Of a stretch of 64,000 nt of DNA, positions 60,085 through 61,329 are shown piece by piece. Origin of the DNA: Deltaproteobacteria bacterium (lineage in GTDB: Bacteria; Myxococcota_A; UBA9160; UBA4427); NCBI GenBank assembly GCA_029261855.1, contig JAJDAN010000089.1, positions 372,001-436,000 of the forward strand. Direction: 5' to 3'. Within the stretch, counting starts at the first letter, position 1. Every line of letters starts with the position of its first letter. Under the pieces are notes generated by a model. The model saw only the letters and a program-made list of their open reading frames with translations. It had not been told where the DNA came from and ran no database searches. Both the position numbers and the translations under genes were made by a program.

Positions 60085-61329
60085 ATGACCATCGAACGAG
60101 ATGCACTCGGCTTCGACGCACCCGCACCGATTGGCCACCCCGGCCGATCCGGGTTGCCGGCTGGCCGTACGACGGGACCGGAGATCGGGGAGCCGCTTCC
60201 CGGTCTCAGACTGCCGGACCGGGACGGAAGGATCGTCGACCTGCATGCGGACCGCGGCGGAGCACCGGCCGTGGTGGTCTTCTTTCGCTCGGCCGTCTGG
60301 TGACCCCCTTGCTGGACGCAGCTCGGTGAGCTGCGCGACGCCCATCCCGCCTTCGAAGCCGCGGGTGTCAAGCTCTATGCAATCTCCTACGACGATCCGA
60401 AGGCGCTGCGCGCCTTCGGCGAACAGCAGCAGATCCCCTACCCGCTGCTCTCCGATATCGATTCGGAAGTCATCCGTCGCTACGGGATCCTGAACGATCA
60501 GGTCGAGCCCGGCGATGCGCTCTTGTACGGCATCCCGTACCCCGGCGTCTTCGTCAGTGACGGCGACGGGCGCGTCGTCTCGAAGTTCTTCCACGACAGC
60601 TACAAGAAGCGGGACAGCCCGGAGATCCTGCTCGACGCAGCACTCGGGCGGGTCCAGATCGACGAGAGCGCGCCGTGCGCGAACGCAGGGGATGACGCCG
60701 TGCGGGTCACCGCCCAGGTGCGCGGCGGCCGCGGGACGATCCGACAGGGAATCCTGCGACACCTCGTCGTGCGCTTCGCCGTGCGGGAAGGACTGCACAT
60801 CTACGGCGAACCGGTTCTCGAAGGCATGGTCCCCACTCGGGTCCGGCTTTCGGGGCCTCCCGGTCTCGTGGTGGAAGAACCCATCCTGCCGCCGACCGCG
60901 CGCGTCCATCTGCAGAGCATGGGCACCGAGCTTTCCGTCTGGAGCGGGATCGTCGACATCGTCGTGCCCTTCTACGCCGTGGGAGAACTCGCCAGTGAGG
61001 TGCGGCCCCTCGACCGCGATTCGGTGCAGCTCGAGATCGACATCGCGTATCAGGCCTGCAGCGACGACACCTGCCTGCTTCCCCGAACCGAGAAGCTCAC
61101 CCTCGACGTTCCGCTCGAGGTGGTCGACGTGCCATCCCTCGCCCTGCACCGGGGGCACGGTCAACGCGAAGGCGGCTACGACGCGACGCCGCACATGCTG
61201 CGGCTGCTCCTGCGCAAGGTCCGCGCGCATCCGCTCGGGCTCGTGCGCTACGTCTGGAAGAACGGGAAGCTCGAGCTCGCCGCGCGGAGACGCGCGCGAG
61301 CGGCCCGGAAGCCCGCTTCGGGGAGCTAG
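60085..61329 (+). CDS. Probable selenoprotein: UxxC redoxin fused to a DsbD-alpha-like domain
   Basis: A 414-residue protein if the in-frame TGA at 60301-60303 is read as selenocysteine (Sec73). Residues about 30-185 are an AhpC/TSA-type redoxin: GEPLPGLRLPDRDGRIVDL, VVVFFRSAVW, then U-PPC-WTQLGEL, where U occupies the first position of the CxxC active site and C76 the second. It continues with KLYAISYDDPKALRAF and YGIPYPGVFVSDGDGRVV. Residues about 205-355 resemble the N-terminal domain of DsbD (YQACSDDTCLLP, C-x4-C). No signal peptide. ATG 60085. Without Sec decoding, the 72-codon product would be a useless fragment. An 8-bp hairpin follows the TGA. A nonsense mutation is the alternative. 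Confidence 0.82.
60301..60335 (+). other. TGA codon and SECIS-like hairpin
   Basis: The TGA is followed, 13 bases later, by CGCAGCTC (60317-60324), loop GGT (60325-60327), and GAGCTGCG (60328-60335): a perfect 8-bp stem. The loop starts 22 bases after the TGA and contains G and U, as in the E. coli fdhF SECIS, whose apical loop presents a GGU to SelB. The distance lies inside the range usual for bacterial SECIS elements. The stem is also coding sequence, so chance cannot be excluded without alignment. Confidence 0.6.

Follow-up and report, generated by a model that had tools for sequence, protein, structure and literature searches.

The gene described here, carried on the forward strand of the window (the whole stretch of 64,000 nucleotides analysed), is very probably a genuine selenoprotein gene in which an apparent premature stop at codon 73 encodes selenocysteine (Sec). 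Its frame opens with an ATG at 60085, contains a single in-frame TGA (FFRSAVW-TGA-PPC) and closes with a TAG at 61327-61329, yielding 414 residues on readthrough. The coordinates and frame given in a preliminary description of this DNA were exact, as were its 341 codons beyond the TGA, and its proposal that the TGA encodes Sec73 is now supported by Sec machinery in the genome, conservation of the TGA, relatives with Cys or Sec at the site and a hairpin of the bacterial SECIS (bSECIS) model. Sec insertion itself we infer from the machinery, the codon conservation and the hairpin. Pfam detects AhpC-TSA, Redoxin and DsbD_N matches in the 414-residue protein, the last of which (PF11412, residues 226-340) constitutes a second half that the preliminary description had missed (Table 1).

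Table 1. Features of the predicted selenoprotein gene, in window coordinates
Feature	Position	Strand	Remarks
Predicted selenoprotein gene, whole	60085..61329	+	414 codons plus stop TAG; codon 73 TGA very probably read as Sec
AhpC-TSA (redoxin) domain, residues 34-165	60184..60579	+	Pfam PF00578, E=2.4e-29, 102.2 bits against a cut-off of 26; Foldseek Bcp, AhpE, ResA
TGA codon 73, proposed selenocysteine	60301..60303	+	TGA in 58/58 homologous loci and 62/62 distinct contexts
Cys76 codon, putative Sec73 partner in UPPC	60310..60312	+	Invariant in 49 nonredundant sequences
Predicted bSECIS hairpin	60317..60335	+	8 bp stem, GGU loop 21 nt after UGA, -12.5 kcal/mol; synonymous variation reduced
DsbD_N-like domain, residues 226-340	60760..61104	+	PF11412 in 15/15 members and 11/11 isolated domains
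Cys325 codon, first Cys of CX4C	61057..61059	+	Invariant in 49 nonredundant sequences
Cys330 codon, second Cys of CX4C	61072..61074	+	Invariant in 49 nonredundant sequences; lost in diverged paralogue L101

Across related genomes and GTDB contigs, codon 73 is TGA, in the context WUPPC, at every one of the 58 two-domain loci covering the site, a set in which some genomes are represented twice. A motif scan allowing any residue at this position recovered 62 distinct 120-nt contexts, all with TGA; TGC and TGT never occur among two-domain members, and no Cys form of the two-domain protein was found in either the 58 loci or the 62 contexts. Alignments of the homologues extend over the whole length of the protein, across the TGA, with identities mostly of 48-69%, and the parts on either side of it therefore belong to one family. 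In 49 nonredundant sequences, position 73, Cys76, Cys325 and Cys330 are the only invariant Cys/Sec columns, and the residues that directly follow the TGA (P74, P75, C76, T78 and Q79) are likewise invariant. Within the host's class the gene is present in 33 of 91 genomes, with the TGA inside every copy among those listed, and in the family of HTCC2080 (Halieaceae) it is present in 18 of 140 genomes, each of the 17 copies that span the codon reading TGA there. Single-domain relatives have, at the same site, either WCPYC encoded by TGC or TGT (L087-L090, L092) or WUPYC encoded by TGA (L091 and L093, the latter from the host's own genome).

The host genome (G000), a draft of 6.96 Mb in 91 contigs that is 98.6% complete, contains matches to selA (447 bits), selD (338 bits; G000:C24:63971-64897) and tRNA-Sec (66 bits, called by ARAGORN as tRNA-SeC(tca)). 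The selB wing domain is matched (E=7.9e-16), and a second selB match, above its curated cut-off, lies near the first on the same strand; both fall in frames of 655 aa. An in-frame TGA also occurs once within the selD gene (L011), in keeping with a selenophosphate synthetase that itself contains Sec. The genome has at least three other redoxin genes in which TGA takes the place of the first Cys codon of CxxC (L093, G000:C3:153207; L094, G000:C21:17310; L095, G000:C32:94354), with the motifs WUPYC, HWUPYC and HWUPFC, and because of them the host genome is rich in UxxC selenoproteins.

The preliminary description had suggested looking for selA, selB, selC and selD, all of which are present, the tRNA-Sec with anticodon tca, and aligning homologues in the expectation of Cys or Sec through TGT, TGC or TGA as the only variation, which is the pattern observed: TGA throughout the two-domain members, and TGC, TGT or TGA in the single-domain ones. 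Its argument that a chance nonsense change would be unlikely to strike this codon can be put more firmly, since the same codon is TGA in all two-domain homologues covering the site, and a chance nonsense mutation is thereby excluded. It had also named outcomes that would speak against Sec, such as missing selB or selC and unrelated residues at this position in homologues, and none of those that could be tested was observed.

In the HTCC2080 family, selB occurs in 16 of 18 carriers vs 25 of 122 non-carriers (p=2e-8), whereas in the host's class, where selB is common, co-occurrence is not significant (p=0.10). Each of 17 additional carrier genomes examined has a selB match, which lies above the curated cut-off in 15; the model used (TIGR00475) also matches weakly in genomes without Sec, and the two matches below the cut-off therefore count as partial. 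The gene follows selB at a distance of about 2 kb in HTCC2080. More broadly, several genomes of this family have selB within some 2-6 kb of the homologue, at L061 (HTCC2080, selB upstream), G156:C15, G512:C1 and G625:C70. At ten marine gammaproteobacterial loci (L052, L053, L055, L059, L061, L062, L064, L065, L066 and L070) a second TGA-containing redoxin, apparently membrane-anchored and reading FFRAHW-TGA-PYC or -SYC, adjoins the homologue downstream on the opposite strand, placing two selenoprotein genes together. Several genomes of genus g10 have a further redoxin match with a TGA no more than a few hundred bases from selB, on the opposite strand (G016:C161, G022:C88, G024:C1, G026:C79 and G028:C60).

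The predicted hairpin starts 13 nt after the TGA, reads CGCAGCUC-GGU-GAGCUGCG and agrees with the published bSECIS model (PMC13188914) in its loop, stem, spacing and folding energy (Table 1). An equally good hairpin follows 22 of the 1128 other TGAs of this GC-rich 64-kb window, and since such a structure is found at about 2% of them the hairpin by itself is weak evidence for Sec. Its conservation is stronger evidence than its presence: mean synonymous heterozygosity over the hairpin codons is 0.37, where the codons used for these amino acids in the rest of the gene lead one to expect 0.57, and none of 20,000 draws gave so low a value; the codons ACG78 and GAG82 are invariant in the 49 sequences. 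Pairing is kept in 95.7% of cells, one pair changes on both sides, and covariation is slight. Strict hairpin criteria hold at 49 of the 58 loci, the other nine having an imperfect stem or, in one case, an N in the sequence. No Rfam family was found at the hairpin, and its folding z-score was uninformative.

These observations bear on the other ways in which the TGA might be explained. A pseudogene, or a sequencing or assembly error, could be suspected in a draft genome of 91 contigs, but the same TGA recurs in genomes obtained independently from two distant groups, the cultured strains HTCC2143 and HTCC2080 among them, and the remainder of the frame is open and conserved there; the comparative data refute this explanation, to which we attach next to no probability. 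It is also highly improbable that the TGA works as a stop and yields a short product, with translation restarting downstream, for instance at the TTG at 60523. Although a 268-aa open reading frame with a TTG start does exist there, protein conservation runs unbroken over the TGA into the invariant residues beyond it, and a product begun at 60523 would lack a large part of the redoxin domain and with it the active site, so that a restart is rejected on comparative grounds. Bacteria do at times read through UGA by near-cognate decoding, and the codon might accordingly be read as another amino acid, such as Trp or Cys by suppression, rather than as Sec. The site is, however, the Cys position of CxxC and not a Trp position, two-domain members use TGA to the exclusion of TGC and TGT, and the genome has the complete Sec machinery and the gene a conserved hairpin; decoding as Trp or Cys is rejected on the same comparative grounds and retains, in our judgement, very little likelihood.

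Granting Sec at position 73, the chemistry of the enzyme can be approached through its active site. In profile alignments to solved peroxiredoxins, the column of the peroxidatic Cys is occupied by Cys76, and that of the Thr/Ser in TxxC by position 73. The signature of true peroxiredoxins, a PxxxT/SxxC motif with a catalytic Arg, is absent: SAVWUPPC has Ser69 at the Pro column and Sec at the Thr column, and the Arg column holds Pro or Gly. The active site is thioredoxin/ResA-like, set within a Prx-like fold, and it is only under a thioredoxin-like reading that Cys76 would merit the term "resolving" used in the preliminary description. Because the peroxiredoxin Pro, Thr and Arg are missing, we consider a thiol/selenol-disulfide oxidoreductase likelier than a peroxidase. 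The competing proposal accepts UGA as Sec but holds that Cys76 or Sec73 reduces hydroperoxides, with electrons supplied by the DsbD_N-like domain. It draws on the Prx-like fold shared with Bcp and AhpE, on the alignment of Cys76 with the peroxidatic Cys and on other Prx selenoproteins known to carry Sec in place of the peroxidatic Cys (TxxU; PMC13188914). Set against these are the substitutions just listed, which replace the Thr of TxxC, the Pro four residues earlier and the Arg, and the finding that no curated peroxidase model scores above its cut-off; we regard a peroxidase as unlikely, though still to be reckoned with.

The DsbD_N-like domain of the host protein scores 25.9 bits, just above the cut-off of 25, and 29.0 bits as an isolated domain; PF11412 is matched in all 15 members examined and in 11 of 11 isolated C-terminal domains (best E=1.1e-10). 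Neither a transmembrane domain nor a C-terminal thioredoxin domain like that of DsbD was detected by Pfam in the 414 residues, and since no signal peptide is apparent by eye the protein is probably cytosolic. An AlphaFold2 model, built from a 23-sequence alignment with Cys in place of Sec, reaches a mean pLDDT of 90.6 and a pTM of 0.89, and is all-beta and confident over the DsbD_N-like part; folded from its single sequence, this domain reaches a pLDDT of only 40.5, too low to build on. In Foldseek searches the redoxin domain retrieves Bcp, AhpE and ResA, and the matches listed covered that domain only. The sequence profile of the DsbD_N-like domain matched no PDB chain, a single-sequence search gave chance-level matches only, and a fold search of viral proteins returned only generic redoxin-type matches. 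Its CX4C pair (C325/C330) is almost always conserved, being present in 49 of 49 sequences and not in L101 (G075:C108:7455-8612), a diverged paralogue that keeps the TGA and in which a five-residue deletion has removed the second Cys.

From these features a working mechanism for the oxidoreductase can be sketched. With the hairpin as guide, SelB and Sec-tRNA-Sec would insert selenocysteine at the UGA of codon 73, producing an AhpC/TSA-fold domain with Sec73-Pro-Pro-Cys76 joined to a DsbD_N-like domain with Cys325/Cys330. Most likely, Sec73 would attack a substrate disulfide or another oxidised sulphur species, Cys76 would close a selenenylsulfide with Sec73, and Cys325-Cys330 would exchange electrons with that selenenylsulfide, much as E. 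coli nDsbD does through C103/C109 with its thioredoxin-fold partners (PMC7347389). Whether the two pairs form such a self-contained relay within one chain we judge to be evenly balanced on the sequence features at hand, and the relay would not be universal, because L101 retains the TGA without the second Cys of CX4C.

A maximum-likelihood tree of 48 rows groups the sequences from gammaproteobacteria with two host-family sequences (98/96), and together they sit inside the diversity of the host's class under a midpoint root and uneven sampling; this placement suggests transfer. No relatives were found on viral contigs, and no full-length relatives on plasmids. We tentatively propose, with somewhat less than even confidence, an obligate-Sec redoxin/DsbD_N family that spans a class and marine gammaproteobacteria and would provide a one-chain, membrane-free DsbD-to-thioredoxin-fold relay strictly needing selenium. 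To our knowledge, nearly all selenoproteins have Cys counterparts, and a widespread family that yielded no Cys form marks a chemistry where Cys may fall short. Annotation easily cuts such genes at the TGA or misses them. The fusion to DsbD_N suggests an electron partner on the same chain, and so opens the function of one UxxC Prx-like selenoprotein to direct testing.

Several known systems resemble parts of this protein. The nDsbD domain of E. coli is alike in that the Pfam DsbD_N match covers the Cys pair of the window protein, but nDsbD is periplasmic, belongs to a membrane protein and carries its cysteines as CX5C (PMC7347389), whereas the window protein has CX4C, no membrane domain and no obvious signal peptide. 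The SelL-related redox protein (NF040769) and the ResA-like WAxxUGC protein (NF041054) are likewise Sec-containing or related thioredoxin-fold redoxins, of which the window protein is not a member (34.9 bits against a cut-off of 120, and 13.5 against 300); no curated NCBIfam model reaches its cut-off, the best being PRK09437 (55.7 bits, cut-off 140). Closer are the single-domain WCPYC/WUPYC redoxins of Pseudomonadales and of the host's own genome (L087-L093), which share 40-45% identity over the redoxin domain and have Cys or Sec at the same codon, but lack the DsbD_N-like domain, read PYC in place of PPC and commonly occur in Cys forms.

Prx-like UxxC selenoproteins (PF00578) have been known since 2005 and are described as frequent in marine bacteria and as having many Cys homologues (PMC1088965, PMC2398784, PMC13188914). 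The window protein belongs with these thiol:disulfide oxidoreductases by its PF00578 score above cut-off and its U73-P-P-C76, and shares with them the AhpC-TSA fold, the UxxC and the distance from true Prx; it differs from them in its C-terminal DsbD_N-like domain with CX4C and in the lack of any Cys form found. The GOS paper describes a Prx-like 3 fused to another Cys domain, with a CxxC and three Cys. Compared by description only, its Unknown_3 also joins a UxxC Prx-like domain to a second Cys-containing domain; Unknown_3 has three conserved Cys including a CxxC, where the second domain of the window protein has CX4C and matches DsbD_N. A GOS family might include partial sequences of the window protein under another name. 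A literature search on the motif returned nothing relevant, and the portion of the open-access literature covered by our search contained no mention of a redoxin/DsbD_N selenoprotein. UxxC Prx-like selenoproteins are themselves already known, and what is new is the redoxin/DsbD_N fusion, for which no Cys form was found.
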